Source of the DNA: a virus
DNA: 64,000 nt
Strand: one strand, 5' to 3'
IMG/VR virus record: IMGVR_UViG_3300009181_000033
Coordinates: 1-64,000 of that record
In this document: positions 47,187-63,099 of the stretch, piece by piece
Numbering within the stretch: the first letter of the stretch is position 1
Layout of the letters: each line of letters begins with the position of its first letter
The notes under the pieces: model-generated
Database searches by the model: none
Told to the model about the DNA's origin: nothing
The model's input: only the letters and a program-made list of their open reading frames with translations
Program-made: the position numbers and the translations under genes

Positions 47187-47483
47187 TCACTTTCCAAAAG
47201 TATAAATCTTATTTTCAGTCTTGGGTGTGGCCTCCTCTGCTGCATCTGCAGGTGTCGCACCCTTTGTTTTGAAACCAATATACTCCTCGGCGTCATCTGG
47301 GCGCCCTGGATCATTGCTGCCTTTATCTCCGGGAGACTTATACCAATATCCGTGAATGTCAGCACCTCTCTCTAGATCATAGGGATAAAACCCTTTGACT
47401 TCGGTGGGGTCTGCCGTAACGGCCGGACTCTCTGAGATGACTTTTTGGATTATCTTACGTAGTTGCCCAATGCTCATTTTCAT
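47187..47483 (-). CDS. Small protein with shared MKIT-type N-terminal helix (member 1)
   Basis: 98 residues. It begins MKMSIGQLRKIIQKVISES, the helix module shared by five proteins in this window (others at 47492, 56840, 57388 and 62887). The rest is G/D/P/K-rich and probably disordered (KGFYPYDLERGADIHGYWY, then ATPADAAEEATPKTENK). The module could be a targeting or docking helix (inference). It follows the next member by 8 bases. Confidence 0.65.
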   Translation of the reverse strand: MKMSIGQLRKIIQKVISESPAVTADPTEVKGFYPYDLERGADIHGYWYKSPGDKGSNDPGRPDDAEEYIGFKTKGATPADAAEEATPKTENKIYTFGK

Positions 47484-47491
47484 TGAAGCAC

Positions 47492-47800
47492 CTAAATGTC
47501 AAGAGTCTTTGGATAACCTTCTTCACCGGGTTTTGCAGGAGGTTTACCACGATCCCTCTTGGCCTTTATGTTTGCCCAGAGACCCTTTGAACCGCTTCTC
47601 TTCTTTTTTGCTTCACCCAAAGCAAAACCATTTTCTTCTTCCTCGACATCCTTGAGTCCCATTCCTCCACGGCCGACCGTGTCCATCTCTTCATCAGACA
47701 CAGATTCTCCTGTTCCTGGATACCAACGACCCGGAGGCCATGCTTCTTCTTCCAGGGCTTCTCTGATGATTCTTCTTAATTGTGACAAGGTAATCTTCAT
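47492..47800 (-). CDS. Small protein with shared MKIT-type N-terminal helix (member 2)
   Basis: 102 residues starting MKITLSQLRRIIREALEEE. After the helix the sequence is charged and disordered (GTGESVSDEEMDTVGRGG, KKKRSGSKGLWANIKAKRDRGK). A hairpin stands just before the start. The basic C-terminal half could bind nucleic acid or a virion surface, as small internal proteins do in some phages (inference). Confidence 0.65.
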   Translation of the reverse strand: MKITLSQLRRIIREALEEEAWPPGRWYPGTGESVSDEEMDTVGRGGMGLKDVEEEENGFALGEAKKKRSGSKGLWANIKAKRDRGKPPAKPGEEGYPKTLDI

Positions 47801-47807
47801 ATAGATT

Positions 47808-47830
47808 ATATATGCCCAAGGGGCATATAT
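47808..47830 (-). promoter_or_regulatory. Perfect hairpin in the leader of the gene at 47492
   Basis: Arms 47808-47817 and 47821-47830 (ATATATGCCC and complement) with a 3-base loop, 7 bases before the start codon on the minus strand. No T run follows, so it is either an RNA-processing site or a translation control element. Confidence 0.45.
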
Positions 47831-47857
47831 GGCTGCAGTGACGGTGATAAAAATTGT

Positions 47858-48208
47858 CTATAGTTTGCCTTTGTGGTTAGTAGCAGATGACTGAGTCACA
47901 GTCTTATAAGAAACACCAGGTGTTGTAGACAAATGAGTGCCGAGCTGACAAGACTTGCCTTTATTCATACCACTGTTGTTGCGCCAAAAATCTGCGTAAC
48001 GATTGCGATCAGCTGTCGAGTTAAATGACAGAACGGTAATTCCAGCCTGCTTTCCATCGCCGGCTTGAAGGCCGAGATATTTAACGGTCGGCTCATTTGA
48101 GCAATCAGGGCAATGATTGATCTTGCCACCAGCTACAAACTTGGCAGGAGAACGGGAATCGAACACATAACCACAAGCAATACATTCTCGATTCATAAGA
48201 ACCATCAT
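47858..48208 (-). CDS. Zinc-ribbon hypothetical protein
   Basis: 116 residues. CIACGYVFDSRSPAKFVAGGKINHCPDCS is a Cys4 zinc ribbon near the N terminus. The rest is polar with LGLQAGDGKQAGITVLSFNS and a final TTPGVSYKTVTQSSATNH. The exact start (several ATG codons) is unsure. Function unknown; it could be a nucleic-acid or protein-binding ribbon. Confidence 0.6.
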   Translation of the reverse strand: MMVLMNRECIACGYVFDSRSPAKFVAGGKINHCPDCSNEPTVKYLGLQAGDGKQAGITVLSFNSTADRNRYADFWRNNSGMNKGKSCQLGTHLSTTPGVSYKTVTQSSATNHKGKL

Positions 48209-48267
48209 ACAGGGGCGAACGACAAATTTGCTCCCCCAATTATTTTTAATTCAAACTAGAATGATTT

Positions 48268-48507
48268 TTAGATTTTAAAAGCATGCCAATCCATGCAAGG
48301 AAGATCAAACGATTTTAAATAATTTTGAACATCTTCCATTAGTTCTTTTTGGGTATTGCCCATGGGGAAAACAGGATCCTCAGAACACATAGCTGGATTT
48401 CCATGTGTGTCATAGTAAACTTCATAAATGGCATATTCTTCTTCTTGTTGGCCATCTACATCTGGATCACAAAGCTTCCTAAGAACCCTGTAGTTCCACG
48501 TATTCAT
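48268..48507 (-). CDS. Conserved small hypothetical protein
   Basis: 79 residues: WNYRVLRKLCD, then EYAIYEVYYDTHGNPAMCSEDPVFP and QKELMEDVQNYLKSFDLP. This type (WNYRV..EYAIhEVYYD..G....TEDPV.P.G) occurs widely in bacteria and phages, but the function is not known to me. It is tied to the upstream gene by an ATGA overlap. Confidence 0.7.
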   Translation of the reverse strand: MNTWNYRVLRKLCDPDVDGQQEEEYAIYEVYYDTHGNPAMCSEDPVFPMGNTQKELMEDVQNYLKSFDLPCMDWHAFKI

Positions 48508-48956
48508 TTTATTCCTTCCATTTTGGAAATAACGATGGACAGACCGTCCATCCAGGATTTATCATTTGGATGTAAACCATGTTTTGATTTGTTGTGTTTG
48601 CAAAATTTTAAAGAACGAAGAATGTGCTCAAATTCATCTTGCGAAAGAGCTAAATTGTATTTGGGTAATTCGCCCGGGTCTAGGATTGTTGAGTCTTTTT
48701 TATCATCTTCATGCTGCAAAAAGAAATTTGAAGTGCACGTGCAGGGTCTTATTGGAGAACAAAGAATTTCACATTTTTTACACCACCAAATACTGCCACC
48801 GCCTTCATTTATTGATTCAATTAAGGAATATTCATCTACATCAGAAGATGAAACTACCATCCCCGGATTTTTAATTAGTCTTATCAGGAGATTGTGTCCT
48901 TCTGTCGTGGCCCTCATCTCAGCCATTTTTAATTGTGTTAATATTGTTTGACTCAT
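48504..48956 (-). CDS. Hypothetical protein with cysteine cluster
   Basis: 150 residues. WWCKKCEILCSPIRPCTCT forms a cysteine-rich patch around 55-75 that may bind zinc. A later SQDEFEHILRSLKFCKHNKSKHG is helical and basic. It overlaps neighbours by 4 bases at both ends. No recognised family. Confidence 0.6.
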   Translation of the reverse strand: MSQTILTQLKMAEMRATTEGHNLLIRLIKNPGMVVSSSDVDEYSLIESINEGGGSIWWCKKCEILCSPIRPCTCTSNFFLQHEDDKKDSTILDPGELPKYNLALSQDEFEHILRSLKFCKHNKSKHGLHPNDKSWMDGLSIVISKMEGIK

Positions 48957-49225
48957 TCATCATACTCTATTTTAGAAAAATGCAAATCATTGTACCAGCC
49001 AACCTTGCCTCGAGGAGTTAGAATCTTTGTGTAGGCACTACGTTCTAAAATTAGAACCGTTTCATTTTCAAAAATGACATCTACTACAAAATCTTTTTCT
49101 ATATCGTCAAATGAAATATGCCAGACATTTAAAAATGAAGACCCTATTGGTCTTACAATCAATAGTTCACCTAAGACACACTGCTCTTTCACAACATGAT
49201 TTGAAAATGTTGGACATTTTCTCAT
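48953..49225 (-). CDS. Small SH3-like family protein with IS607-derived N terminus
   Basis: 90 residues. The body (GELLIVRPIGSSFLNVW, FENETVLILERSAYTKILTPRGKVGWYNDLHF) fits the small beta-barrel family abundant in this window. The first 15 codons lie inside a probable IS607 end, with an inverted repeat GAAAATGT...ACATTTTC. They overlap the tnpB stop as ATGA, so the N terminus is probably supplied by the element. Confidence 0.6.
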   Translation of the reverse strand: MRKCPTFSNHVVKEQCVLGELLIVRPIGSSFLNVWHISFDDIEKDFVVDVIFENETVLILERSAYTKILTPRGKVGWYNDLHFSKIEYDE

Positions 49226-50442
49226 ACGTATTTTAGCTCCGAAGAGTTATTGACGTACATCTTCTGAAATCCTTGTAGAAAGTCCACGAAGTTTTCAGTT
49301 TGGGCAAACCATCTGCCCATGTGTCGTTTGGCTATGTTAGTAGCCGAATTTAGGTCTCTATCAACTATCAAACCTGGTTCTAGTTCAACCTCTCTTATTG
49401 ATAGTTCTGAACTTAGTGTCTTGATCCCGGTCAAACAGTTGATTTGAGATGTGTAACTTTCATCGACTAGATGAAAATCTATTCCCGCATTCCTCGCTTT
49501 GTAATCAAGGAATGTTTTGAACCTAGACAACGTGCCTTGGTTCTGTGTGGACTTGTTAAGTCTTTTAGTTGAACGCTTGCCTTTTGGAAGCTTTTTAGTC
49601 TGAATATCACCAACAATCATTGTTCCAACTTTTTCTTTCAAACACGTGTCAACAATCACCTTGCTGACTTTATGCTGAAAATCTTTGTTCTTGTTGGAAT
49701 TTTTCCTAGCTAGTTTTTTATGAACTGAAGTTAACTTCTTCCAACGATTTGAACCTTTCTTCTTTTTGTCGCGAAGACTTTGAACATGTTCTTTTTGTCT
49801 TTCAGCCTTCTTGAACCTGTTGTTCTGAACTGCAAAAGGCTTCGTGGAATTTGAGAAACAGGTGGCAATTGAACTTACTCCTAAATCTATCGATAGAAAT
49901 TTTTCCCTGTCAAGATCATCATTCGTTGGCTTTTCAGAATAAGTGAAGATCAAAAAGCACTTCCCTTCTTCCTCTTTAACAACCATTGTTTTGATTGTGA
50001 CGTTTGTCACACCACACTTACGAACATAGTCTGGTAGATCTATGTTTAATTTGTGCCCATCGATCAATGAGATCTGAACGCCTTGTTCAAGGAGTTTAAA
50101 CCCGCCACTTCCGTTGTTCCAATGAAATTGGAACGTACAAAAATTCTTGTAGGACTTAAACTTATAGGGAAATTGTGCAGTTGAATCTTTCTTCTTCAAG
50201 GCATAGAATGATTTGATTGAATCAAATAGTGTTCTACTTGTGGTTTGCGCTGGGTGTGACAAGATCGTTAGTTGATTATCATTCCTGAAATTCTTATATC
50301 GCTGATTGAGTTGCTTAAAATCTTCACCTTTCTTAGCAAATTCAAGCAAATGATTGTAGAGCAACCTGTGCTCGTTTGAAAGAGTTCGAATGACAATAAC
50401 TTGTTGTCGTGAAGGAAAGATTCTAACCTTTAGAGATTTCAT
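49222..50442 (-). CDS. tnpB: TnpB RNA-guided nuclease, divergent active site
   Basis: 406 residues. RuvC-I is LSIDLGVS (D186) and RuvC-III VDRDLNSATNI (D361 region). The usual RuvC-II glutamate is replaced (MIVGDIQ, 276-281). A glutamate sits instead at E328 (VDESYTSQ), about 50 residues on, like the rearranged layout described for Fanzor-type proteins. The zinc-finger cysteines are missing: only C336 is present in QINCLTGI. It is probably an active guide-RNA nuclease, but both changes are worth testing. Confidence 0.85.
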   Translation of the reverse strand: MKSLKVRIFPSRQQVIVIRTLSNEHRLLYNHLLEFAKKGEDFKQLNQRYKNFRNDNQLTILSHPAQTTSRTLFDSIKSFYALKKKDSTAQFPYKFKSYKNFCTFQFHWNNGSGGFKLLEQGVQISLIDGHKLNIDLPDYVRKCGVTNVTIKTMVVKEEEGKCFLIFTYSEKPTNDDLDREKFLSIDLGVSSIATCFSNSTKPFAVQNNRFKKAERQKEHVQSLRDKKKKGSNRWKKLTSVHKKLARKNSNKNKDFQHKVSKVIVDTCLKEKVGTMIVGDIQTKKLPKGKRSTKRLNKSTQNQGTLSRFKTFLDYKARNAGIDFHLVDESYTSQINCLTGIKTLSSELSIREVELEPGLIVDRDLNSATNIAKRHMGRWFAQTENFVDFLQGFQKMYVNNSSELKYV

Positions 50443-51052
50443 CTTTAATCTCCTCTAGGTTTTTCACAGATGCGCTGATCTTCTTCTTGTAATTTCTTGA
50501 ACCATACAATTTCATGCTGAAGTGATGAACAATTGAGATGAGATCTTCTGCAAACTCTTGTTCTTTTGTCTTGTCGGATTCAGAATCATCAACAACAACA
50601 ATCTTAAAGTTATTCATGACAGACAACTCTTCAAAAAGTTCAAACCCAAACCTAAGAAGACGATCCCTGTAATGAACCACCAGAGTTTCTATTTCGTCAT
50701 TCTTAATCAATGACAAAAGTTCTATTAGACCTTTGCGTTTATAATTTAATGCAGAGCCAAATTCAGAAATGACCTTATCAATCTTCATTCCATTAGCAAT
50801 GCAGAAATCCTTAATTCTTCTTTCTTGTTCCTTTAGAGAATTTGCCTGTTGTTGTGTTGATTCTCTACAATAAATCACGTTCAGTCGAGTCTTTGATGTT
50901 ACTCCAATAACTTGACGATAATGTTCATCTGTGTAACGTCTATGACCAGACTTTAATACGACAGGTTTCAAAGCACCCTCCTTTTCCCATCGGTAAAGAG
51001 TCTTACTCGTCAACCCGCACATCTTTGCAAATTTCGTAACTGAGTACATCAT
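50423..51052 (-). CDS. tnpA: IS607 serine recombinase TnpA
   Basis: 209 residues. A MerR-like helix-turn-helix at the N terminus (VTKFAKMCGLTSKTLYRWEKEG) is followed by a serine recombinase domain with YCREST (S65 is the likely nucleophile; usual motif YARVSS) and YRDRLLRFG around 128. These are the standard parts of an IS607 transposase. It mobilises the element; the next gene, tnpB, is coupled by a 20-base overlap. Confidence 0.9.
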   Translation of the reverse strand: MMYSVTKFAKMCGLTSKTLYRWEKEGALKPVVLKSGHRRYTDEHYRQVIGVTSKTRLNVIYCRESTQQQANSLKEQERRIKDFCIANGMKIDKVISEFGSALNYKRKGLIELLSLIKNDEIETLVVHYRDRLLRFGFELFEELSVMNNFKIVVVDDSESDKTKEQEFAEDLISIVHHFSMKLYGSRNYKKKISASVKNLEEIKDEISKG

Positions 51053-51065
51053 CTAACAATAGATA

Positions 51066-51293
51066 TTAGACAGGGTCAAAAATGTCTAAACTTTTTTCAA
51101 AATGTCTAAACTTGTTTAAATGGATTGGAGTATAATCATACCACCATTGCGTCGTACCATCAGTGAACAAAACATAACAACTGCTCTCACCCGATTCTGT
51201 GTTTCTCGATATATCAAGTATGATTCCTAAAGAACATTCTTTTTCAGAGAACACCCAATCATCGTAGAGACAAATCAAGTCACCTACTTTCAT
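51066..51293 (-). CDS. Small SH3-like family protein with IS607-derived C terminus
   Basis: 75 residues from the ATG at 51293, overlapping the previous stop as ATGA. MKVGDLICLYDDW...GIILDIS...CYVLFTDGTTQWW is the small beta-barrel pattern. The last 15 residues (NKFRHFEKSLDIFDP) are coded by the IS607 end repeats, so the original C terminus was replaced by the insertion. Confidence 0.65.
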   Translation of the reverse strand: MKVGDLICLYDDWVFSEKECSLGIILDISRNTESGESSCYVLFTDGTTQWWYDYTPIHLNKFRHFEKSLDIFDPV

Positions 51294-51490
51294 AGAATCT
51301 CTACTTCTCCTAGATAGCACCAACCAATTCCTTGTCGAATTAGGACTTTAATTAGGCGTTGGGTTTCAACAAATTCTTCAGGAAGATCAACAGCTCTACA
51401 CAAATAAGTGGTGCCGGTCCTAGTATAGGTGAGCAGACAATTTTTATTAATGGGCCTTCTTGTTGAATCACAAAATTTTTGTTTTTCCAT
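51290..51490 (-). CDS. Small SH3-like family protein
   Basis: 66 residues. The core TYTRTGTTYLCRAVDL, then LIKVLIRQGIGWCYLGEVEIL, fits the family ending G-x-GW-x-L. Two further cysteines are present. It starts an ATGA-coupled pair and has no gene upstream for 300 bases. Function unknown. Confidence 0.55.
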   Translation of the reverse strand: MEKQKFCDSTRRPINKNCLLTYTRTGTTYLCRAVDLPEEFVETQRLIKVLIRQGIGWCYLGEVEIL

Positions 51491-51790
51491 GTTCTATAAG
51501 GTAAACAATATTACATCTATGTTTAAATAGATCAATATTTTGATCACCGTTTGAAAATTATGCCTAGGACTTGATTTCAAAGATGTTTTATGATTTCATC
51601 TATTTTTCTCGAACGCTCCAAATTTCTTTTTGAAGTTTATCAAGTTCGCCTCGTCAAACCCAGAAATCCCTAACCGTGTGGCTCAAATCTAAGATCATCA
51701 CTTAGGTTTTCACGTCTTCATCATTGAATCGTTCGTAGACCAGGTCGCATAGAAAAACAATATTGCTATAAGACAAATTTGGACAACTTA
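51491..51790. other. 300-base gap, probably a decayed coding region
   Basis: No intact frame longer than about 25 codons with a ribosome site. One minus-strand frame reads LCDLVYERFNDEDVKT, stop, VMILDLSHTVRDFWV, stop, RGELDKLQKEIWSVREK, stop. It looks like a gene remnant with several stops. No tRNA or repeat was found. Confidence 0.4.
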
Positions 51791-52105
51791 TTAGGCGCTT
51801 GATTTTTTCTTTTTTCTTTTTTCTTTTTTGTCGCCTGCTAGCAAAATTTCTTCGGTTGTCAATTGAACCGAATCCCCATTGTTTTCAGGCGACATCCAAG
51901 GAAAAATTTCGTGTTCATTTGTCTTCAATTGTTCAATTGAACTCAACAAACATATTTCTTGAACCTCGGATATTCTCTTTTTTACTTCATTTGTCAAATT
52001 GTTGTATGCGATCCTTTCGGCCTCAAAAGGGTTGTCAGCATCAACCAGCATTTCTGTTAAAAATGAAATTCGATACAACATGTTTTTAATTATTAATGTT
52101 GCCAC
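51791..52105 (-). CDS. Hypothetical protein
   Basis: 104 residues, helical (YRISFLTEMLVDADNPFEAERIAYNNLTNEVKKRISEVQ), ending in a lysine-rich tail (KKEKRKKKKSSA). It diverges from the fibre gene at 52285. No known motif; the basic tail may bind nucleic acid. Confidence 0.55.
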   Translation of the reverse strand: MATLIIKNMLYRISFLTEMLVDADNPFEAERIAYNNLTNEVKKRISEVQEICLLSSIEQLKTNEHEIFPWMSPENNGDSVQLTTEEILLAGDKKEKRKKKKSSA

Positions 52106-52284
52106 GTTTTTATTTTTCTATATCGAATTAAATTAAAAAACGGTGTTATATCTAAATGCTAACTCTTGGAAGAAAAATAGGTTCAAATTTTTGCATGTTG
52201 TTAATTAACATTGTGGGCCCATTGCTCCCGGGAAACATAACATCAACATCATTCAGGTCATAAAAGTAGACTAGAAGTGGCAAC

Positions 52285-53041: not shown

Positions 53042-53162
53042 AATATTTTTATTCATGGTTGAATATATTCAATAATGAATATTTATTGACGTTGAGACGT
53101 GTCGTGCACTAACGCACTTCATGCTTGACAACCTCAAAGTAATTACAAAGGAAGGTTTTTAT

Positions 53163-55457
53163 ATGGCTCAAACACATATACAACAGCATCAGATTAGCGG
53201 CTCGCTTTCAATGGACATCTCAGATAATGTCGAGCGCAATAATTTGGTTAAAGCAGGTCGCACAATTATTGACGACCTCAATTCACTTCGCTCACAGGTG
53301 AAAGGAATTCTCGGTTCAGCCGCATGGACCGACGAACAATCCATCTCCCTGCAGAACCTTAAGGCTCAGTTGACGGGAACCTTGGTTGCCAACTCAGCTT
53401 CTTTTGCCAGTGCCGTTTATGTGAGCGGTGCAGGTTCATTGGTGGTTGATGGCGCAGCTACATTTAACGAGGCAGCTGACTTCAACAATGGCATTACCGC
53501 TGATGTACTAAAGATCGATGGAGACGTCTCACAAAGACTCTACATCGTTGGTACCTCTGGTGAACTCAAAGACGAGTCAAAGCTCGTCTTCAATGGCTCA
53601 GCACTCACCGTGGACGGAGACCTCAACATCTCCGGAAGCTCAGTGTTTGCCAACCCAGCCGACTTTAACAATGGAATCACCACTGATGAACTAAAGGTTG
53701 ACGGCGACGTCTCACAACGTCTCTACATCGTTGGTGCCTCTGGTGAGCTCAAGGACGAAGAGAAGCTCGTCTTCAACGGTTCAGAACTCACAGTTGACGG
53801 CGGACTTAATGTCTCCGGAAGCATTGTGATGGGTGGGACTATCACGCTCAACGAAGCAGCCGACTTCAACAAAGGAATCACCGCTGATGAACTAAAAATC
53901 GACGGTGACACAGCCCAACGTCTCTACATCGTTGGTGCTTCTGGTGAGCTCAGGGACGAAGAGAAACTAACGTTTGATGGTTCAGAGTTAAATGTAACAG
54001 GGGATCTAGAGATCAGCGGAGCTGCTGACCTCAATGGTGCCTTGGATGTTGCTGGTCAAGTTGACCTCGCTGCCTCAGAGGTTGCCACCAACGTTCGTGG
54101 TACACTTTCAGTGGCGGAAGCCGCTGACCTCAATGGCACCCTAGACGTCGCTGGTCAAGTTGACCTCGCTGCCTCAGAGGTTGCCACCACAATCCGTGGC
54201 ACACTAAATGTTGCTGAGGAAACAACCCTCGCTTCTGCCAAGGTTTCTGACCTCACTCAGACTTATATTGTCTTCGCTGGTCTCGATGGCGCTCTTGAAG
54301 ACAGTGAGGCTCTCTCCTTCGCCTCAAACCAACTAACAGTTGGTGCTTCTGGCGCAGCTGGTTCTGTCACCATCAAGAATGCCTCTGGTGATCCAATCTT
54401 GCAAGCTGGCTCCGGTGAGCTAGTGATGCGTGACAACAATGGCGATGCAGTCTTGTACGTCAACTCGGTATCCAAGACCTTTGATCTGAAGAATGTTGAT
54501 GGAGACTCTACATTCCATGTTGCAGCAGCGTCAGGTAATACAGAGGTTGCCGGTACATTAGATTCAGCTGGTGACTTTGCGGTCGCCTCTGACAAATTCA
54601 CTGTCGCAGCAGCATCAGGTAACACCGCAGTTGCTGGTACATTAGATGTCACCGGGAACGCAATCTTTGCAGGAAACGTTCAGGTCGACGGAGATCTTCG
54701 CGTCAAGGGTTCGATGACCTACATCGACACCGTCAACATTCGCGTCGAGGATGCATTCATCTATCTCGCCACCGGCTCACTTGGATCCACCGATTCAGGT
54801 GTTGTCCTTCACGGTGGTGCTGGTGCTGATATGGACCTTGCCATCGCCCAAAAGGGCGGCTCTGGTGAGTTCATATTCGGCAAGGGCAATCGTGCCCCTG
54901 ACGGAGAAGGTGCTCTTGACGGAATGGTTCTCGTTCCTGCCAAGCTCAGTGAGGTAAAGTTCGGCTCAGCCGAAAATGCCCTCAGCGGCTCAATGTCAAT
55001 CGCCGGAAACGATATCAAGCTCGCCGCCTCGGCCGCTGCAATCGTATTCGACGATGCTTACCGTGCTTCTTCAACATACGCTGCTCCCATTAAGCTCGCC
55101 GCCTCGGCGTCCGAGTGGTCAGCGTTCCAGACACAGTATCCCGGCAAATCACTTCTCGGTGCCCTTGGTGCCGGCGGTGGTGTCGGTGTCAACTTCCGCA
55201 AGAAGATAATCATGGGGAACAATGCTAACTTCAGCGGCAATACACTTGACATCGCTGCAGCCGGCGTCGGTTCTCTTCGCAGCACCGCTCAGGCAGACTC
55301 CGACTATGGTCTCGATGTCTACCTCAACGGTGTCCTCTTGGCTCTCGGCGCTAGCGCCGACTACACAGTGCCAAGCGTATCACAAATCAGCTTCAACTAT
55401 GCTTTGAACAGCGATGACGTTCTCACAATCGTCGCCAAGAACATCGCATCTGCCTGA
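53163..55457 (+). CDS. Abundant repetitive virion/fibre protein
   Basis: 764 residues from the ATG at 53163, with GGAAGG upstream; a longer frame to 53121 lacks a site. Three roughly 62-residue repeats (ADFNxGITADELKIDGD, QRLYIVGASGEL, EEKLxFNGSELTV) at about 103-280 are followed by two short ones (ADLNGxLDVAGQVDLAASEVAT). Next comes a fibre domain (KGSMTYIDTVNIRVEDAFIYLATG) and a C-terminal GSLRSTA domain. The gene is far richer in G+C and uses different codons from its neighbours, as a highly expressed or acquired gene would. Confidence 0.75.
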   Translation: MAQTHIQQHQISGSLSMDISDNVERNNLVKAGRTIIDDLNSLRSQVKGILGSAAWTDEQSISLQNLKAQLTGTLVANSASFASAVYVSGAGSLVVDGAATFNEAADFNNGITADVLKIDGDVSQRLYIVGTSGELKDESKLVFNGSALTVDGDLNISGSSVFANPADFNNGITTDELKVDGDVSQRLYIVGASGELKDEEKLVFNGSELTVDGGLNVSGSIVMGGTITLNEAADFNKGITADELKIDGDTAQRLYIVGASGELRDEEKLTFDGSELNVTGDLEISGAADLNGALDVAGQVDLAASEVATNVRGTLSVAEAADLNGTLDVAGQVDLAASEVATTIRGTLNVAEETTLASAKVSDLTQTYIVFAGLDGALEDSEALSFASNQLTVGASGAAGSVTIKNASGDPILQAGSGELVMRDNNGDAVLYVNSVSKTFDLKNVDGDSTFHVAAASGNTEVAGTLDSAGDFAVASDKFTVAAASGNTAVAGTLDVTGNAIFAGNVQVDGDLRVKGSMTYIDTVNIRVEDAFIYLATGSLGSTDSGVVLHGGAGADMDLAIAQKGGSGEFIFGKGNRAPDGEGALDGMVLVPAKLSEVKFGSAENALSGSMSIAGNDIKLAASAAAIVFDDAYRASSTYAAPIKLAASASEWSAFQTQYPGKSLLGALGAGGGVGVNFRKKIIMGNNANFSGNTLDIAAAGVGSLRSTAQADSDYGLDVYLNGVLLALGASADYTVPSVSQISFNYALNSDDVLTIVAKNIASA

Positions 55458-56127: not shown

Positions 56128-56136
56128 TCAAATGGT

Positions 56137-56570: not shown

Positions 56571-56843
56571 TTACACCTCACGTAATAATGCATAACTAAC
56601 GTAACCAATTCCCTGTGGAAACATCACTTTTGCCCACTTGAAATCGGCTCGCGTCTGAACTGAAATGACCTCGAGAAGCACGCCAGGAGTTCGTAACGGA
56701 ACTAATATCTTCTCTCGAGGTATATCCACACCACGTGAAACAGAAGGTGAAGAGATATCGGTATACACGTTAGAGTACTTCACACCAGCATCATCTGTGG
56801 CGTTATAAGAACTATGAACGTGTACGAGATCACCGATGTTCAT
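56571..56843 (-). CDS. Small SH3-like family protein
   Basis: 90 residues. It starts MNIGDLVHVHSSYN, then TPGVLLEVISVQTRADFKWAKVMFPQGIGYVSYALLREV, matching the family. An insert of about 35 residues sits between the GDL and the core. The ATGA overlap couples it to the MKIT protein upstream. Confidence 0.65.
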   Translation of the reverse strand: MNIGDLVHVHSSYNATDDAGVKYSNVYTDISSPSVSRGVDIPREKILVPLRTPGVLLEVISVQTRADFKWAKVMFPQGIGYVSYALLREV

Positions 56844-57385
56844 CTACGATTATAACTAGAACGGTATGGGGTATCACCGATAAGTTCAGTAACAACGGTA
56901 TTCTCTACCCTCAAACCGGTTCCGTTGAAATCAATTCGGTTCACATGAACCCCAAGTTCATCCGCCAATTTTTGAATTGGAACCTCTCCGTGAGAATCCC
57001 TCAGTTTCAAGAATGCATCATGAACATCCTGAGGATCTGGTGAATCCCATGAGGTTGGCATATCTCTATCAACATCACGGATGTAATCATCGAAACCCTT
57101 GGATTCTCTATTGAGTTGGTAAGGGGCCTTCCACTGTTTCTTTGGTTTCCCCGCGGATAAACCCTTCAGTTCACCACGAAGTTCCTCAAACTTATCGTTT
57201 GGAAGGGTGGTGTAACCCATCTCATCAACCTCAACGTGATCGAGGTATTGAGGAGGAACACTATCCATATCCAGAATCTCACCGGAATCACGGTTAACAA
57301 CACCGCCATCCTTCAATGGAGCTCCGGTTACTCTCTTCACCTCTTCACGGATAATCCTACGTAACTGTGATACTGTTATTTTCAT
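56840..57385 (-). CDS. Protein with shared MKIT-type N-terminal helix (member 3)
   Basis: 181 residues from the ATG at 57385. It begins MKITVSQLRRIIREEVKR, then continues with a mostly polar body ending in a more ordered region (HDAFLKLRDSHGEVPIQKLADELGVHVNRIDFNG), which looks like a small helix-turn-helix. It is the longest member of the shared-helix set. It is coupled to member 4 upstream and to an SH3-like gene downstream. Confidence 0.7.
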   Translation of the reverse strand: MKITVSQLRRIIREEVKRVTGAPLKDGGVVNRDSGEILDMDSVPPQYLDHVEVDEMGYTTLPNDKFEELRGELKGLSAGKPKKQWKAPYQLNRESKGFDDYIRDVDRDMPTSWDSPDPQDVHDAFLKLRDSHGEVPIQKLADELGVHVNRIDFNGTGLRVENTVVTELIGDTPYRSSYNRR

Positions 57386-57387
57386 GA

Positions 57388-57687
57388 TCAACCCTTATAG
57401 AACTGCCCGAGGTGAAGATCTTCCTCAACCTGCATGATGAGTTCCTCAATTTTTTCACCGAGAACTTCGCAAGCCGAATCGCACTGTGCTTCCCAAACAG
57501 GTTTACCACCGCTGGCATCCATGCTTGGATCCATGGGATCAAACTGGGATTTCCAACCATCACAAACCGCATCTAACATGGTTTGTAACTCGGCTGAACC
57601 GGTACCATACCCCAGTTCCTCCTTGAGGGTTGCTCTCTTAACTTCTTCTGCAATAATCCTACGTAGTTGTGTTGCGGTTAGTTTCAT
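57388..57687 (-). CDS. Protein with shared MKIT-type N-terminal helix (member 4)
   Basis: 99 residues. It starts MKLTATQLRRIIAEEVKRA, then a mainly acidic body with cysteines (AVCDGWKSQF, QCDSACEVLGEKIEELIMQVEED). The module DNA is close to member 3 (both have CTACGTAGG or TTACGTAGG followed by ATTAT), a sign of common origin. Function unknown. Confidence 0.7.
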   Translation of the reverse strand: MKLTATQLRRIIAEEVKRATLKEELGYGTGSAELQTMLDAVCDGWKSQFDPMDPSMDASGGKPVWEAQCDSACEVLGEKIEELIMQVEEDLHLGQFYKG

Positions 57688-57741
57688 AAACTTTAATTAT
57701 TCCTCACTTCTCATTTTTCAAGTTTATCACGGAGTTTCGTG

Positions 57742-58367: not shown

Positions 58368-58642
58368 ATTTCCTTCCTACCCATCAAGGAACTCCAAGGA
58401 TCCAATGTAACCCTACCTGGTTTCTTATTCTCATCCATGATGTGTTGTGATAGTGATGCTCCAATTCTCACATTCAACTCATGGCATTCCTCCCTACATT
58501 CCTGTAGGTTTCCTTCGAACTGTTCCAATGTTTGAAACCCCGGAACCTGAAGAACAACATAATAGAAATCCTCCATTTCACCACTGGAATTCTTAAACTG
58601 CCCGGCCGGAATCACGGTGAAAGGTTTCCAATCACTCAACAT
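58364..58642 (-). CDS. Hypothetical protein
   Basis: 92 residues from the ATG at 58642, with GGAGATGGAGAAG upstream; a longer frame starts inside the previous gene. Beta strands (FTVIPAGQF, FYYVVLQVPGF) are followed by helix (LEQFEGNLQECREECHELNVR). Not recognised. Confidence 0.55.
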   Translation of the reverse strand: MLSDWKPFTVIPAGQFKNSSGEMEDFYYVVLQVPGFQTLEQFEGNLQECREECHELNVRIGASLSQHIMDENKKPGRVTLDPWSSLMGRKEI

Positions 58643-58889
58643 TCTTCTCCATCTCCTTTTCAATATTTACCCATTGAAGCACTAAACTTTTCAATCCCTC
58701 CCAGGGGTAAAGAATGTGATGGTTGCTGTTCTCGGTGGAGAACTTCACAAAGTAATTCACCTTGGAGTTTCCATCATCACCGATCTCAACCGATCCAACT
58801 ATCATCTCCATGGTAACATTGGTGCTCGTGGCGGTTGGGCCTGATACAGGAATCACCTTGTTGTTCTCTAGATCGATTTTATCACTCAT
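58632..58889 (-). CDS. Small hypothetical protein
   Basis: 85 residues, beta-rich (VTMEMIVGSVEIGDDGNSKVNYFVKFSTENSNHHILYPWEGL), ending in a charged helix. It overlaps the next gene by 11 bases. No known motif. Confidence 0.55.
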   Translation of the reverse strand: MSDKIDLENNKVIPVSGPTATSTNVTMEMIVGSVEIGDDGNSKVNYFVKFSTENSNHHILYPWEGLKSLVLQWVNIEKEMEKNVE

Positions 58890-59094
58890 TATTCATTTCC
58901 TCCGTTTTATTCAAACACTCCACCGAACAATAACTCCTACCACCAACACTATACCCCAATGCAAGGTTGAACCTCACCTCACAATCCGGATTGAAACAAG
59001 GAAAATCCTTTGCGTTTGGAATCTCCGATGTTTTCATTCCCTTGAACTCATCGGTTAACCACCATGATACCTTACCACAGTATTCCTCACACAT
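58882..59094 (-). CDS. Small zinc-finger-like protein
   Basis: 70 residues with a cysteine set (CEEYC, FPCFNPDCEVRF, YCSVECLNK) resembling an MYND or ribbon finger. No further family could be named. The start overlaps the previous stop by 1 base. Probably binds zinc; role unknown. Confidence 0.55.
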   Translation of the reverse strand: MCEEYCGKVSWWLTDEFKGMKTSEIPNAKDFPCFNPDCEVRFNLALGYSVGGRSYCSVECLNKTEEMNNE

Positions 59095-59528
59095 CAGCGA
59101 ACATCTTTCCTATGTGAAAACCAATCTGCTTGGCGGGTTGAATTGTTACAATAACCGCCAGTACCATTTTCCCTGCGAGTTTTACAAACCGAATCTTTAC
59201 AATTCAAACACATCTCTCCCGTTCCAGTATCAACAGTAGGATGACAGGAACATCGAGCATAATACTCACTCATCAGTGAACCTCCTCGGTTCTCCTTTAT
59301 CTTCCACGTTGTTTTTGAGGATAAGAGAGATTTGATCTCATCCAACACCAGATCGCCGTATTCCGATTGTTTGATTTCAAATACCATTGTGTTTCCGATG
59401 TGGGTTGGTTGGTAAACATCCAGGGATTTGAGGTGATTCTTTTTGAGGAACAACCCAACCTTCCTGTGAACCTCCCACAGTTCTGCATAACTTCCTTTTT
59501 GATCTGGAGATTCAATGGTTATCTTCAA
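59094..59528 (-). CDS. Hypothetical protein, possibly two products from one frame
   Basis: 144 residues from a TTG at 59528 with GGAGGAAC upstream. An internal ATG with GAGGAGG seven bases before it starts a second, in-frame product (MSEYYARCSCHPTV..) with a cysteine-rich end (CSCH, CLNCKDSVC, YCNN). The first half is a beta/helix domain (LKSLDVYQPTHIGNTMVFEI). Internal initiation would give a stand-alone zinc-binding form. Confidence 0.55.
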   Translation of the reverse strand: MKITIESPDQKGSYAELWEVHRKVGLFLKKNHLKSLDVYQPTHIGNTMVFEIKQSEYGDLVLDEIKSLLSSKTTWKIKENRGGSLMSEYYARCSCHPTVDTGTGEMCLNCKDSVCKTRRENGTGGYCNNSTRQADWFSHRKDVR

Positions 59529-59715
59529 AGTTCCTCCCCATACTCTCCCACCTATCAATCATAACAATCCGATCCTTTACCAGATCATAGAAGAATTGGT
59601 ACTGGAATTCCGAGGTGAAATCTACCTCAAAATCCAGGTAATCCTCCGGGTTTGGATTCTCCACCCCGTTATGGGTTCTTGGTGGATCCAGAACAACTCT
59701 AATGGTTCTCAGCAT
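59512..59715 (-). CDS. Small hypothetical protein
   Basis: 67 residues, acidic and aromatic (EDYLDFEVDFTSEFQYQFFYDLVKDRIVMIDRWE). It overlaps the previous gene by 7 bases and the next by 17. No motif seen. Confidence 0.5.
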   Translation of the reverse strand: MLRTIRVVLDPPRTHNGVENPNPEDYLDFEVDFTSEFQYQFFYDLVKDRIVMIDRWESMGRNFEDNH

Positions 59716-59897
59716 GGTTCTTCACCCCAGTTAAAGTTCACTTCATCGAGCACAGAATCATATTTCGATTGCAATTCCCCAAGTTTCTCTCTCAAGAACT
59801 TGATGCAAACCCTTGGATTTGTGTGGGAATCCATGTTATCAAGTGGATCAAGTTCACCTTCACACTCCAAACAATATCTCACCACCTTCTTCTTCAT
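59709..59897 (-). CDS. Small hypothetical protein with cysteine pair
   Basis: 62 residues. YCLECEGELDPLDNMDSHTNPRVC has a CxxC plus further cysteine and histidine near the N terminus, a possible mini zinc site, then a helix (LREKLGELQSKYDSVLDEV). Not recognised. Confidence 0.5.
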   Translation of the reverse strand: MKKKVVRYCLECEGELDPLDNMDSHTNPRVCIKFLREKLGELQSKYDSVLDEVNFNWGEEPC

Positions 59898-59908
59898 GGT
59901 TCCATCCT

Positions 59909-60121
59909 TCAGTATTCCTTAATGATTTTCTTGGTGGTTTTGAAACCATCCCAATCCACAACAACCTTCTCAATGATGACTGGATCATCTGGATCATAAT
60001 AGGGAGATTCCCGAATCCATGTTTCGGAAAACTTCTCCACATCACCCTTCTCTCCACTTTGTGCAAGGATCTTTCCTGATTTGGTGGAGGAAATGAAGTA
60101 GTGATGCCCTCTGTTCTTCAT
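59909..60121 (-). CDS. Small hypothetical protein
   Basis: 70 residues, mixed beta (HYFISSTKSGKILAQSG, IIEKVVVDWDGF). It starts 15 bases after the gene at 60137. No recognised family. Confidence 0.5.
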   Translation of the reverse strand: MKNRGHHYFISSTKSGKILAQSGEKGDVEKFSETWIRESPYYDPDDPVIIEKVVVDWDGFKTTKKIIKEY

Positions 60122-60136
60122 GGTTCTACCTTACCA

Positions 60137-60418
60137 TCATCCTGCGGAACTTTGCACAACTTCCAGATATTCGGCTGGAATCCAGCCGGTATTTCCGTTG
60201 TTCACCATGATCTTATGGGAACGAGGAATTCCATTCATATCGAAGTGATCCTCAAGAACCACACCGGTGTTTTCACGGGTGAATCCTGAGTTATTTGCCC
60301 GAAACTCGCACTTGGGGTCCACGTACAGGTACGAGTGTTTCACGTACTTATCCTTGAAGAGAACTACGGAATCACCAATCTTCTTGATTGAAGTTGAGAG
60401 GGTGAACTTATTCCTCAT
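60137..60418 (-). CDS. Small SH3-like family protein
   Basis: 93 residues. IGDSVVLFKDKYV at the start, an insert, TGVVLEDHFD, then KIMVNNGNTGWIPAEYLEVV complete the family frame. It stands 33 bases after the duplicated two-gene block. Confidence 0.65.
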   Translation of the reverse strand: MRNKFTLSTSIKKIGDSVVLFKDKYVKHSYLYVDPKCEFRANNSGFTRENTGVVLEDHFDMNGIPRSHKIMVNNGNTGWIPAEYLEVVQSSAG

Positions 60419-60450
60419 GATTCAATTCTATCACCTCTCGGTTTCACTTT

Positions 60451-60693
60451 TCACCATCCCCAACCGGTATAAATCCCATCAGAAACAAATGGATAATTTG
60501 GATTTCTTCCCCTAGGAACTTCGTGTTCAAAGATTCCGTAGGAGGAATGAACCACGAGAATCCTTGAGATTCCATCCGAAGGAATTCCTGGAAGTTCACC
60601 TAGGATTGTGTAGATGCAGTTTCGCATTCTTGAAAGAATCACATCACCAGCCTGCAATTCCCATTCCAGGGCAATTCCACCAATTGATCTCAT
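60451..60693 (-). CDS. Duplicated GDVILS-type small protein, copy A
   Basis: 80 residues. It is clearly homologous to the protein at 62432 (shared: ELQxGDVILSxxRNxIYTIxGELPGIPxDGxSxIL and a HEVPxxRxxNYxxVxDGxY end). Together with the small upstream gene it forms a duplicated pair. It fits the SH3-like family with a longer core. Function unknown. Confidence 0.7.
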   Translation of the reverse strand: MRSIGGIALEWELQAGDVILSRMRNCIYTILGELPGIPSDGISRILVVHSSYGIFEHEVPRGRNPNYPFVSDGIYTGWGW

Positions 60694-60830
60694 TACCCCA
60701 CCAGGTGTTTATCTGATTTCCACTCCGAAATGAGGAGCCAAAGGAAATTCCAAAATGATTCTCTGATGTACAGATAACCACCATGGTAACAACACCAACA
60801 CCTACCTTCACTAATTTCACCGGGTTTCAT
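60693..60830 (-). CDS. 45-residue aromatic protein, copy A
   Basis: Reads MKPGEISEGRCWCCYHGGYL, then IRESFWNFLWLLISEWKSDKHLVG. The C terminus is the same as the protein at 62704 (WCC...YLxI...LLW..ISEW/LTEF...DKHLVG). The start overlaps the previous stop by 14 bases, and the stop overlaps the next start by 1 base (TAATG). Confidence 0.65.
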   Translation of the reverse strand: MKPGEISEGRCWCCYHGGYLYIRESFWNFLWLLISEWKSDKHLVG

Positions 60831-61083
60831 TGATCACCTTCACCCAACCTTCAAAGATCCATCCAGGCCCCTGAGGGAAAAGTGCATACAAGAATGTTCG
60901 ATCATCAAGCAGGTTTCCTGGTTTAACCGTTTGCTTCTTTAGGATGATTCCGGTTGTACCTTTCGGGATTTGAAATGATGGCCCTAACATTCCTACGTTG
61001 GCTCGCCAAGGAATTTTGGCACTTGAGTAAATGGTACCAACCTCATTGGCATGGAACACGATCATATCACCGGGTTGTTTCAT
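60817..61083 (-). CDS. Small SH3-like family protein
   Basis: 88 residues. MKQPGDMIVFHANEVG, an insert, KGTTGIILKKQTV, then YALFPQGPGWIFEGWVKVI give the family pattern with a final GW-x-x-x-W-V-K-V. Function unknown. Confidence 0.65.
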   Translation of the reverse strand: MKQPGDMIVFHANEVGTIYSSAKIPWRANVGMLGPSFQIPKGTTGIILKKQTVKPGNLLDDRTFLYALFPQGPGWIFEGWVKVINETR

Positions 61084-61113
61084 GGTTCCAACGTACCTCT
61101 GTTCAGCGAAACA

Positions 61114-61611
61114 TCATGCTTCAATCTTTCTCATTCCCCAAATCTTCTGAGGATCGTACTCCAGAGAATATCGAATGGTTCCTCCTTCGGATTTCTCTGG
61201 AGTTTGCGATTCGATATCCCGGATTAGTTGTGCGTGATACTCAGGATCCAACTCGATTTCCCATAAGATATCTTCAGCATCCTCCACCACCACAGGAATG
61301 CCTCTTCTTGGTTCCACGTTTGGCTCAGAATAATCTTCTTCAGCCTCATCGGTTTCTACCCCAACGAATTGAATGAATTTCTGGAACCATTCCAGGATCT
61401 CGGAATCACCGCCAACAGATAGAAACGAAGAATCCCATTCGTTCGAGCGGTGGTGCCAGAAATCGATTGCCTCAGATTCACTAATGGTAACCCCTAGTTC
61501 CCTTTTGAGCACATCCTGGATCCGGTGAACATCCTCTAGATCATGGTACATCCCAGAGGTACCATTTCGGCACTGAAAGGTTTTTGTTACAATATCTTGA
61601 TTGATTTTCAC
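61114..61611 (-). CDS. Hypothetical protein
   Basis: 165 residues, acidic (VHRIQDVLKRELGVTISESEAIDFWHHRSNEW, then GVETDEAEEDYSEPNVEP and DAEDILWEIELDPEYHAQLIRDIE). Helix-rich, with no recognised motif. It overlaps the next gene by 4 bases. Confidence 0.6.
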   Translation of the reverse strand: MKINQDIVTKTFQCRNGTSGMYHDLEDVHRIQDVLKRELGVTISESEAIDFWHHRSNEWDSSFLSVGGDSEILEWFQKFIQFVGVETDEAEEDYSEPNVEPRRGIPVVVEDAEDILWEIELDPEYHAQLIRDIESQTPEKSEGGTIRYSLEYDPQKIWGMRKIEA

Positions 61612-61913
61612 CGTTTCTCCTCCAACTTCTCATAATCCTTGATGATTTCCTCCCAATGATCCACCAAAAGTTCACCCAATTTTTCACCAACCAAACCAAG
61701 GTTAACCTTCTTTAGTTCCTCCAGGTTTGGTGAATATGAACCACCTAGAGGGAAATCCTTGAAGTGATGATGTTCATCTGAATCAATTCCTCGCCTGATT
61801 AATTCAGATAGCAGGTTGGCAAACCACACCTCGGTGTTAAAATTCCTTCCCTCTACATCAACATATAGATTGGAATCACCACCAAATTCTTTACAGGGAT
61901 TATCTATGCTCAT
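61608..61913 (-). CDS. Hypothetical protein
   Basis: 101 residues (VWFANLLSELIRRGIDSDEHHHFKDF, then LEELKKVNLGLVGEKLGELLVDHWEEIIKDYEKL). Helical and acidic. Its ATG overlaps the TGA of the frameshifted gene upstream as ATGA, showing that the longer reading of that gene is the ancestral one. Confidence 0.6.
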   Translation of the reverse strand: MSIDNPCKEFGGDSNLYVDVEGRNFNTEVWFANLLSELIRRGIDSDEHHHFKDFPLGGSYSPNLEELKKVNLGLVGEKLGELLVDHWEEIIKDYEKLEEKR

Positions 61914-62237
61914 CCTTCTTCTCCTTCAACTTTCACCATTTCATTGATGTAATATGGAATTGCACCTTGTGGAAGAGGTTCAACGGGGAATAAACTCTTT
62001 GCAACCTGATTGTAGTTAATCCTACCTCCGGGCCTCCCCAATGTATCGAGGAAGGGATTGTAAAAATCACCCCATAAAACCCTCCACCTGATTATTGGAG
62101 TTTTTTCTCACAATGGTTCCGGTGGAACTGGAGTAAAGGAAACGAACCATATCTCCAATTTTCCAATCAACCTCATCGAGTAGTTTTCCATCGAGGGTGA
62201 GGAGGGAGGAGATGAATACCGTGTTTATTTCACTCAT
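61910..62237 (-). pseudogene. SH3-like family gene with a frameshift at an A6 tract
   Basis: Starts at the ATG at 62237, overlapping the previous stop as ATGA. Codons read MSEINTVFISS to KIGDMVRFLYSSSTGTIVRK, then at the T6 run 62101-62106 (A6 on the minus strand) the frame goes astray and stops at 62067. With one A removed it continues TPIIRWRVLWGDFYNP to INEMVKVEGEEG, stopping at 61910-61912 with an ATGA overlap to the next gene. So it is a real gene with a 1-base insertion, a recoding site, or a sequencing slip. Confidence 0.7.
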
Positions 62238-62419
62238 GATTCTTTCTCCAGTTCCCCTGGGGCGATGATTTGTTCCGGACGGAAATAAATCTGTTTCCCA
62301 TCGGGTAGCAGGGTGAGGTAGGATTGAATCCCATAGGAATTCCACCTTATATCCAGGATTATCCCGGTTCTTGTTGGCTCACCAAAAAAGTTTGTAAAAC
62401 ACAGATCACCAACATCCAT
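62234..62419 (-). CDS. Small SH3-like family protein
   Basis: 61 residues: MDVGDLCFTNFFGEPTRTGIILDIRWN, then YLTLLPDGKQIYFRPEQIIAP. It has the shortest and clearest family layout (GDL, GIILDI, LPDG). It overlaps the frameshifted gene as ATGA. Confidence 0.7.
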   Translation of the reverse strand: MDVGDLCFTNFFGEPTRTGIILDIRWNSYGIQSYLTLLPDGKQIYFRPEQIIAPGELEKES

Positions 62420-62431
62420 AACCCTATCCTA

Positions 62432-62701
62432 TCATGGTTCCTCAGGGTTTTGCACCGTTCCTAGAACAATATAGGTTCCATCGGTTACGTAAGAATAGTT
62501 CTCACACCTTCTCATGGGAACTTCGTGTTTAAAAACCGTTCCAGGCCGGGAAGAATGAATCAATAGGATCTTTGAAACACCATCACCAGGAATTCCAGGA
62601 AGTTCACCAACGATTGTATAAATTGTGTTTCTGGATTGGGATAGGATAACATCACCAACCTGTAATTCACTCTCCAGGGCAACGGAACCGATCTCCCTCA
62701 C
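62432..62701 (-). CDS. Duplicated GDVILS-type small protein, copy B
   Basis: 89 residues from a GTG at 62701. REIGSVALESELQVGDVILSQSRN, then IYTIVGELPGIPGDGVSKILLIHSS matches copy A at 60451 closely, with a longer C terminus (YIVLGTVQNPEEP). It ends 12 bases before the SH3-like gene at 62234. Confidence 0.7.
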   Translation of the reverse strand: MREIGSVALESELQVGDVILSQSRNTIYTIVGELPGIPGDGVSKILLIHSSRPGTVFKHEVPMRRCENYSYVTDGTYIVLGTVQNPEEP

Positions 62702-62703
62702 CG

Positions 62704-62886
62704 TTACCCCACAAGGTGTTTATCGTGGCGGAATTCTGTTAGGATCTCCCACAGGAGGGCCGGAAGTGAATCATGGATGTGAAGGTAACCTGGTATACCA
62801 TCATACATGCAACACCAGGCCGGGCCAGGTGAAATAACTCCGGGCTTTTCTCTCCAAATCCTGAATGATTTCATTAGGTTAAACAT
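62704..62886 (-). CDS. 60-residue aromatic protein, copy B
   Basis: Homologous to the 45-residue gene at 60693: AWCCMYDGIPGYLHIHDS, then LLWEILTEFRHDKHLVG. A longer N terminus (FNLMKSFRIWREKPGVIS) is present here. It precedes copy B of the GDVILS gene exactly as copy A does. Confidence 0.65.
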   Translation of the reverse strand: MFNLMKSFRIWREKPGVISPGPAWCCMYDGIPGYLHIHDSLPALLWEILTEFRHDKHLVG

Positions 62887-63099
62887 TCAACTACGAATTT
62901 CTAGTTCAGCTTCGAGTTCGGTGATTTGCCTTTTTAATTCAGCAATTTGTAATCTAATCTGAGCGGTGGAAAGATTACTAAAATCTTTTGGTTTAGGTAA
63001 ACCAATCATTCTACTTTTTTCTTTCTTATCTTCGGTTAGTTGGGCTCGCTTAATTTCTTCTGTAATAATCTGCTTAAGTTGTGCTGCGGTGATTTTCAT
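62887..63099 (-). CDS. Small protein with shared MKIT-type N-terminal helix (member 5)
   Basis: 70 residues. It starts MKITAAQLKQIITEEIKRA, then a helix with heptad-like spacing (STAQIRLQIAELKRQITELEAELE) that should form a coiled coil. AGGAG precedes the ATG. It is the first gene of the long minus-strand accessory operon. Confidence 0.7.
   Translation of the reverse strand: MKITAAQLKQIITEEIKRAQLTEDKKEKSRMIGLPKPKDFSNLSTAQIRLQIAELKRQITELEAELEIRS

Follow-up and report, generated by a model that had tools for sequence, protein, structure and literature searches.

A candidate capsid-targeting leader on otherwise unrelated proteins of an uncultured T4-superfamily phage

The internal proteins IPI, IPII and IPIII of bacteriophage T4 carry a capsid targeting sequence (CTS) (Mullaney and Black 1996, cited by PMC5694885 and PMC9391042). 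According to the available part of PMC9026906, which also describes the CTS, the T4 protease gp21 cleaves after L/I-X-E, residues 4 and 7 of the IPIII leader are mainly responsible for targeting and residues 8 and 10 for processing, and the internal protein Alt is an ADP-ribosyltransferase that modifies host RNA polymerase. The available part of PMC12373910 states that IP1-3 inhibit type IV restriction enzymes and that at least ten internal proteins (Ips) have been reported in T4-related phages, many of them found through the leader, so that finding packaged proteins in this way is established in T-even phages. The present study concerns a short N-terminal leader common to five small proteins encoded between positions 47,187 and 63,099 of a 64,000-nucleotide stretch of viral DNA, designated the window, that comprises positions 1 to 64,000 of the IMG/VR record IMGVR_UViG_3300009181_000033.

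The initial annotation of the window had proposed, with the T4 CTS as the conceptual parallel, that this N-terminus is a detachable tag for targeting, docking or prohead packaging. The proposal was supported by the presence of a T4-type protease and capsid, by leader genes beside the protease gene, by conservation that ends at a gp21-type site in the T4 register, by the exchange of leaders between homologous proteins and by enzymes among the cargo. Judged from the sequences, it is highly probable that the module is an N-terminal capsid-targeting leader, cleaved by the gp21-type protease of the phage, that docks its cargo and frees it in the head; a functional T4-type CTS of unrelated sequence is the best-supported interpretation. 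The leader would be an amphipathic helix of 14 residues, M-K-[IL]-T-x-x-Q-L-R-x-I-I-[KR]-E, frequently prolonged to about residue 22 (...[LI]-x-E/[GAS], where a slash here and below marks the candidate cut), that docks the protein on the prohead scaffold core during head building. The phage's own S77 (gp21-type) protease would then cut after the Glu of the terminal [LI]-x-E (E14 or about E22) and free the cargo within the head, to be packaged and, for many cargos, injected with the DNA. Core binding, cleavage, packaging in the virion and injection are the steps that we infer.

All five open reading frames (ORFs) were present on the minus strand with the annotated starts, and each matched the motif. 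The features are listed below in window coordinates, together with the E-value obtained with an external profile built from 456 copies of the leader outside the phage's own genome.

47187..47483, minus strand: leader protein of 98 amino acids (aa), MKMSIGQLRKIIQKVISE/S, candidate cut after VISE18, E 0.35
47442..47483, minus strand: leader core, residues 1-14, of the 98-aa protein
47492..47800, minus strand: 102-aa leader protein, MKITLSQLRRIIRE/A, E 4e-9
47759..47800, minus strand: leader core, residues 1-14, of the 102-aa protein
56840..57385, minus strand: 181-aa leader protein, MKITVSQLRRIIRE/E, E 2e-9
57344..57385, minus strand: leader core, residues 1-14, of the 181-aa protein
57388..57687, minus strand: 99-aa leader protein, MKLTATQLRRIIAE/E, second candidate site LKE23, E 1e-7
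57646..57687, minus strand: leader core, residues 1-14, of the 99-aa protein
62887..63099, minus strand: 70-aa leader protein, MKITAAQLKQIITE/E, second candidate site LTE23/D, E 4e-5
63058..63099, minus strand: leader core, residues 1-14, of the 70-aa protein

Past the N-terminus the five proteins were unrelated, as had been claimed. BLASTP comparison of the full proteins aligned residues 1-12 to 1-45 (best E 2.5e-7), and the best E-value from residue 25 on was 2.5. The external profile placed the five at ranks 1-5 of 1088 window reading frames, a test that is not wholly independent because the 456 copies had been collected with a profile of the phage's own copies. That all five are copies of one module was significant for four (E 2e-9 to 4e-5), but the protein starting at 47483 was marginal (E 0.35). 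This is the weakest of the five copies, with Lys in place of Glu at residue 14, and the next decoy scored E 2. The protein starting at 57385 has an alternative start, TTG at 57391, and a protein of locus L119 whose cargo is related to it likewise carries the leader, followed by LTE/S. The C-terminus of the 102-aa protein contains a stretch, LWANIKAKRDRGKPPAKPG (window 47495-47593, minus strand), that matched five function-less PHROGs (E <1e-3) at differing places of the PHROG profiles; a similar stretch comes after the leader in loci L115 and L038.

The initial annotation had also described the DNA of the module as alike, a claim that failed. The sequence TACGTAGG was found in only two of the five copies (57385 and 57687), the 47483 copy carries TACGTAAG, and the 47800 and 63099 copies have neither. 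At pairs of positions with the same residue, 37 of 82 codons were identical among the five copies vs 29.7 expected from codon usage, and 304 of 750 among 15 copies vs 258.5. Since the agreement is near the codon usage expectation, likeness of the DNA was rejected as evidence. The similarity could have reflected a recent DNA duplication or an expression element, that is, conserved 5' coding DNA with no function in the protein, and the 57385 and 57687 genes are indeed neighbours that have TACGTAGG in common. However, codons that match hardly beyond codon usage, and residues conserved across 349 non-redundant proteins, leave this explanation with next to no probability. The module is conserved at the protein level and is not recently duplicated DNA.

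The leader was found elsewhere in the genome, in line with the initial annotation. A profile search of the whole 297,894-base record gave 18 places at E <0.01, all on the minus strand. A nineteenth, at 165422 on the plus strand (E 1.8), is a 303-aa protein with the start MHKKISSQNLRKLIREI and the end SRWNKLAGLK that matched a polynucleotide kinase PHROG (E 4e-7). Of the 19, 16 had served as seeds of the profile itself and had been obtained by a pattern search or by reading the head gene cluster. The first genome-wide pattern, which allowed up to three mismatches, had returned 16 places vs two for the reversed pattern, two of the 16 (207084 and 259644) not being genes. One ORF contains two copies, at 193265 and 193028. 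A 308-aa protein (L002:3343-4266, minus strand) has the leader at residue 1 and again near residue 80, which resembles a fusion of two leader genes, and a closer tandem was seen in L055.

A strict DNA pattern of the leader was found in at least 120 stretches among the 2.9 million viral contigs of IMG/VR vs none for the reversed pattern; the recurrence exceeds chance. In a collection of prokaryote genomes the same pattern gave seven stretches in five assemblies, every one titled MAG (metagenome-assembled genome). The profile was then applied to 50 viral records: 28 leader-positive records, which are all the distinct contigs of at least 50 kb among 80 of the at least 120 stretches, and 22 random contigs, which are those of at least 34 kb among 80 of 120 listed, three of 30-33 kb having been left out. 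It matched 28/28 of the former, by construction, and 1/22 of the latter; that one record is 273 kb long, carries S77 and has 19 copies. The highest count was 35 places in a 284-kb record. When annotated phages were queried with the leader alone, 20 aa returned nothing and a 23-aa consensus returned one uncultured 484-kb record at E 3, although such short queries may be filtered. The nearest usable cultured relative found, the Flavobacterium phage vB_FspM_immuto, with a gp21 44% identical to that of the present phage, has proteins starting MKKSQLRQIIKEA and MKKSELVKLIKEEL.

The record is that of a T4-superfamily phage. It encodes a gp21-type S77 protease (PF03420, E 1e-25) and a T4-type, gp23-type capsid protein (PF07068, E 1e-64), as well as a T4-type portal and large terminase. 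The genes of the head cluster are arranged in the order terminase, portal, a 285-aa protein, protease, small genes, a 689-aa protein and capsid; the 689-aa protein is presumed from its position to be the scaffold. The portal gene in the head cluster (L004:13778-16903, minus strand, of the phage's own record, G000) is interrupted by an intein with an HNH endonuclease (PF14890, PF13392). Five leader proteins lie in or near this cluster.

Own record, between terminase and portal: 106-aa leader protein
Own record, between protease and presumed scaffold: 137-aa and 81-aa leader proteins
Own record, at least 2.5 kb beyond the capsid gene: 114-aa and 327-aa leader proteins

The location beside the protease gene was a general feature. 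Close relatives of gp21 were found in 80 loci, 69 of which continue for at least 600 bp past the end of gp21. A leader gene lies within 500 bp downstream in 58 of these 69. A degenerate, sub-threshold leader was present in three of the 11 loci that have no downstream leader gene (L323, L250 and L281). All 195 leader matches of at least 10 bits in the 80 loci were on the same strand as gp21. In 20 more diverse S77 loci, counted at a loose cut of at least 8 bits with about 4 kb fetched on each side of gp21, a leader gene was near gp21 in 19/19 from leader-positive records, and the single leader-negative record had none. The same 8-bit count in the gp21 neighbourhood of five cultured phages found no leader gene. 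An S77 protease was found in 21 of the 28 leader-positive records of at least 50 kb and in 14/14 of those of at least 100 kb; the seven that lacked it are 50-83 kb long and may be fragments. Among the random contigs, 2/22 had S77. The gp21 of the leader-positive relatives was 44-89% identical to that of the phage, so that the leader-positive group is diverse.

The end of the leader was examined in 349 proteins of at least 60 aa, retained from 475 distinct leader proteins by a simple 4-mer rule for non-redundancy. The column information was high through residue 15 and modest through residue 22, and from residue 24 onwards it did not exceed background. The sequence [LI]xE was found at E14 in 295 and at E22 in 118 of the 349. 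Within residues 18-30, [LI]xE[AGS] occurred in 94/349 vs 17 (standard deviation 3.8) after shuffling, while residues 31-45 gave 6 vs 10.6 expected and the ORFs of random contigs 11/479 vs 9.5. Residue 23 was Ala, Gly or Ser in 57 of the 118 proteins with the E22 site vs 53 of the 231 others. In 21 orthologues of the protein encoded next to gp21, E22 and G23 were present in 21/21, L20 was nearly invariant and residue 21 was variable, the pattern expected of a protease site. A larger set of orthologues had Gly at the residue following the candidate cut (P1') in 65 of 72, and P1' is the only column that counts because the selection pattern required the Leu and Glu of the site. The predicted structure of the 137-aa protein next to gp21 had a mean predicted local distance difference test score (pLDDT) of 66 and contained a 19-residue helix (residues 5-23) at about 85.

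The capsid protein itself showed a related site. The sequence [VL]L[KR]E/[SAN] was found at the expected end of the propeptide in 43 of 46 capsid proteins; the other three belong to cultured phages, two of which have IVSE/A and LISE/A there. The place of the cut was judged from the propeptide of T4 gp23, at what we take to be the exact T4 site. The capsid N-terminus, MKYFSLDQLAQGIREKH, resembles the module by eye. With the module profile, however, 284 of 2000 shuffles scored as high as the median capsid protein, while a position matrix was more favourable, and mimicry of the capsid propeptide is not claimed.

The spacing of the conserved residues could be compared directly with T4. In the T4 record, ipII and ipIII start MKTYQEFIAE, which places Y4, F7, I8 and E10 at -6, -3, -2 and 0 relative to the Glu, and the same register here corresponds to L8, I11, I12 and E14. 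The residues at -6, -3 and -2 were hydrophobic in 338, 338 and 349 of the 349 leaders, respectively, and position 0 was Glu in 329. By position, these leader residues match the determinants of the T4 CTS. In T4 ipI the first L/I-x-E has its Glu at residue 19 and not 10 (MKTFKEFTSTTTPVSTITE), and the residue-19 and residue-10 sites of T4 parallel E22 and E14 here.

Two further leaders, class B (MNLLREYIRELLTE/S) and class C (MKKLLTEWRKFLKE/G), recurred among ORFs with no detected leader of the kind described above, designated class A. They were first recognised in a listing whose sole requirement was [LI]xE[AGS], and their profiles were seeded partly from records later searched. Class B was found in 13/28 leader-positive records and in 1/22 random contigs, the same leader-positive 273-kb record, and class C in 9/28 and 0/22, respectively; only one of the 50 records had both. 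The residues at -6, -3 and -2 are hydrophobic in 100% of the class B and C leaders by construction, because the collection patterns required it. Leaders of these classes were noted in loci L048, L034, L023, L111 and L009, and the phage's own genome encodes a B-like protein (L003:9241-9522) whose leader ends in ILATE, a non-canonical site.

Homologous cargo was found behind different leaders. A P-loop kinase has a class C leader in L051 and a class A leader in L035 and L046 (64% identity over 210 residues, E 4e-94), one cargo has class B in L034 and class A in L023 (59% over 188 residues), and a small cargo has class C in L031 and class A in L034 (66% over 65 residues). The homology of the cargo starts 2-12 residues beyond Glu 14. 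No other observation speaks as strongly for detachable, equivalent leaders as their exchange on homologous cargo.

A C-terminal tag was also observed. The motif RWxxLAG was present at 46 distinct ORF endings in the loci fetched, 42 of them on frames of at least 500 codons, the size of the presumed scaffold, and in 10 of the 20 diverse S77 loci; the vB_FspM_immuto protein before the capsid gene ends RWQKLAGIIK. Three leader proteins end in this way, the 327-aa and 303-aa proteins of the phage and a 265-aa protein of L307. The motif stood 2-3 residues before the stop in 64 of 67 occurrences, which include orthologues and overlapping loci; it was absent from the random contigs, and permuted motifs gave 0. 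A natural reading of the sequences is that the tag may give its bearers a place on the prohead core. The copies in the phage's own record (G000) are the following.

166295-166317, plus strand: RWxxLAG tag
196429-196451, minus strand: RWxxLAG copy, internal to its ORF and not terminal
246646-246668, minus strand: RWxxLAG tag
252363-252385, minus strand: RWxxLAG tag

The cargo was surveyed in 119 of the 349 class A proteins, namely the 145 longest minus 26, of which two were cut by locus ends and 24 were taken for orthologues of the gp21-adjacent protein, one of these (L250:10164) not being beside gp21. These 119 matched ten Pfam families with one member each, several on one protein, including YkuD, the HAD domain of RNA-repair proteins, an AAA_33 kinase, GNAT, tRNA ligase CPD and EF-hand. 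They also matched 22 PHROGs, 14 of them nameless and two of the named ones tape-measure families matched weakly by a single 467-aa member, and gave six NCBIfam matches; PADLOC found 0 in the same 119. Among 42 class B and C proteins, two matched AAA_33 and Zeta_toxin (kinase fold), one RNase_T, one GNAT and two ART-PolyVal, the last with a best E of 3e-4, under the curated cut-off.

The cargo bears on whether the leader is confined to proteins of the prohead core or of head assembly, like T4 gp67 and gp68, that are destroyed or expelled and deliver nothing. This could explain why two leader proteins are encoded between the protease and the presumed scaffold, why such a neighbour of gp21 is conserved and why the C-terminal tag of the presumed scaffold is also found on a few leader proteins. 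However, 35 leader places in one record exceed the needs of an assembly set, 12 or 13 of the phage's 18 places lie outside the head cluster, and the cargo includes enzymes (GNAT, a polynucleotide kinase (PNK)-type kinase, RNA-repair, YkuD and ART-like proteins). A role confined to assembly is consequently unlikely.

Several observations weigh against a capsid-targeting leader, 1) no virion proteomics was found for any leader-positive phage, 2) the T4 late promoter TATAAATA was found within 150 bases upstream of leader genes in 3 of 464 vs 4.25 expected by shuffling, 3) the 689-aa presumed scaffold, identified by position only, had no match in Pfam or PHROG, and its counterpart in the Flavobacterium phage carries another annotation, 4) residue 15, the P1' residue of a cut at E14, is Glu in 269/349, whereas the T4 site is followed by Ala, 5) ORFs of the same loci with no detected leader, a set from which only identical stretches were removed and in which some are orthologues of one another, had [LI]xE[AGS] within residues 18-30 in 74/967 vs 21, a signal that we read in part as further leaders and that is not unique to the module, 6) the majority of the scanned cargo had no recognised domain, and 7) among 12 cultured T4-superfamily or large phage records, ten, including T4, had no match at E 0.05 and the other two had weak matches, three and one in number. 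One S77-positive random contig lacks the leader; the random contigs are mostly short and only two of the 22, both S77-positive, reach 100 kb, so that this control tells little about large phages. In the gp21 tree, the 25 leader-positive rows need just two label changes, and the association of the leader with S77 must therefore be due partly to ancestry. The leader-positive rows fall in one weakly supported fork with a cultured Microcystis phage, which had no match, and the Flavobacterium phage, which had weak matches, and the cyanophage, Pelagibacter and Caulobacter rows stand apart.

This partly phylogenetic association would also suit a helix that docks to some other phage structure or to a host complex, such as the tail, the membrane or a replication compartment, its link with the head being a coincidence of ancestry. 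Short helices are able to act as docking tags, and one of 19 residues is predicted here. Such docking leaves unexplained the end of conservation at [LI]xE/[AGS], the T4 register, the gp21 neighbourhood and the cut-site end that leader classes of differing sequence have in common; we regard it as quite improbable.

As a capsid-targeting leader, the module resembles the T4 CTS in several respects. Both are short N-terminal leaders (10-19 residues in T4) on otherwise unrelated proteins of phages with a gp21-type S77 protease, both end in L/I-x-E with hydrophobic residues at -6, -3 and -2 from the Glu, both have a near or a far cut site (Glu 10 or 19 in T4, candidate sites at 14 or about 22 here), and some of the cargo of both is enzymatic or presumed to be directed at the host. 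The sequences, however, are not recognisably homologous, the leader profile A1 giving 0 matches in T4 at E 0.05, and because of this result the leader is proposed to work like a CTS with no claim of descent from it. There are 18 places here and up to 35 in relatives vs three internal proteins in T4, and these phages have additional leader classes and a scaffold-like C-terminal tag. The likeness to T4 gp67 and gp68 is one of location, two small leader genes lying between those of the protease and the presumed scaffold here, but the T4 pair is upstream of gp21.

The head propeptides of phiKZ- and SPN3US-type phages are likewise removed by an S77-family protease after Glu, and SPN3US has two paralogues with an identical N-terminus (PMC5694885 and PMC9026906, in the parts available). 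In contrast, several of these propeptides are longer than 100 residues, the motif at the cut reads A-x-E or S/A-x-E, and the available parts of the two papers describe no family of dozens of short common leaders. The titles and abstract openings of the literature on head proteins and the CTS revealed no such leader outside T4 and the phiKZ/SPN3US-type phages, and six leader strings were absent from the full texts searched, a coverage that excludes most subscription journals and bioRxiv. The class of system is already known; in the literature searched we found no description of the leader sequence, of so many tagged proteins, of the leader classes or of the C-terminal tag.

If this interpretation is true, proteins that bear the leader are candidates for delivery into the host by the virus, and a simple signature would make hundreds of 'hypothetical proteins' of uncultured large phages candidates for packaged, injected effectors. 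The list of leader proteins would be a source of counter-defence and host-takeover candidates, because T4 uses its internal proteins against restriction enzymes and Alt to modify RNA polymerase. The leader would also be a new cleavable tag with which foreign proteins could be loaded into phage heads, and would show how phages may recruit cargo through leader exchange. A broader proposal, to which we give even chances, is that a large uncultured T4-superfamily group maintains an open platform for cargo loading, in which any protein that gains one of the interchangeable leaders (A, B or C), sometimes also the scaffold-like C-terminal tag ERWxxLAGIxK, would be loaded, freed and injected. Each phage would then carry several tens of effectors, about an order of magnitude above T4, that could be listed from sequence.

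Other features of the window were also noted. A MerR-type serine resolvase and a TnpB/OrfB_IS605 protein with a Cas12f-like domain are encoded at 49225-51052 on the minus strand, near the leader genes at 47187-47800; we take the pair to be an IS607-like element. An IS200-type Y1 transposase (63248-63679, minus strand) adjoins the leader gene at 63099. Several proteins of 60-90 aa encoded between 56322 and 62701 on the minus strand have a repeated GDLV...GW pattern and by eye are perhaps a paralogous family of small barrels; two of them were searched against Pfam with no match. On the plus strand, opposite to the leader genes, a 778-aa protein (53121-55454) gave a match of bactofilin-like type (PF04519, E 5e-10) and by eye contains repeats.

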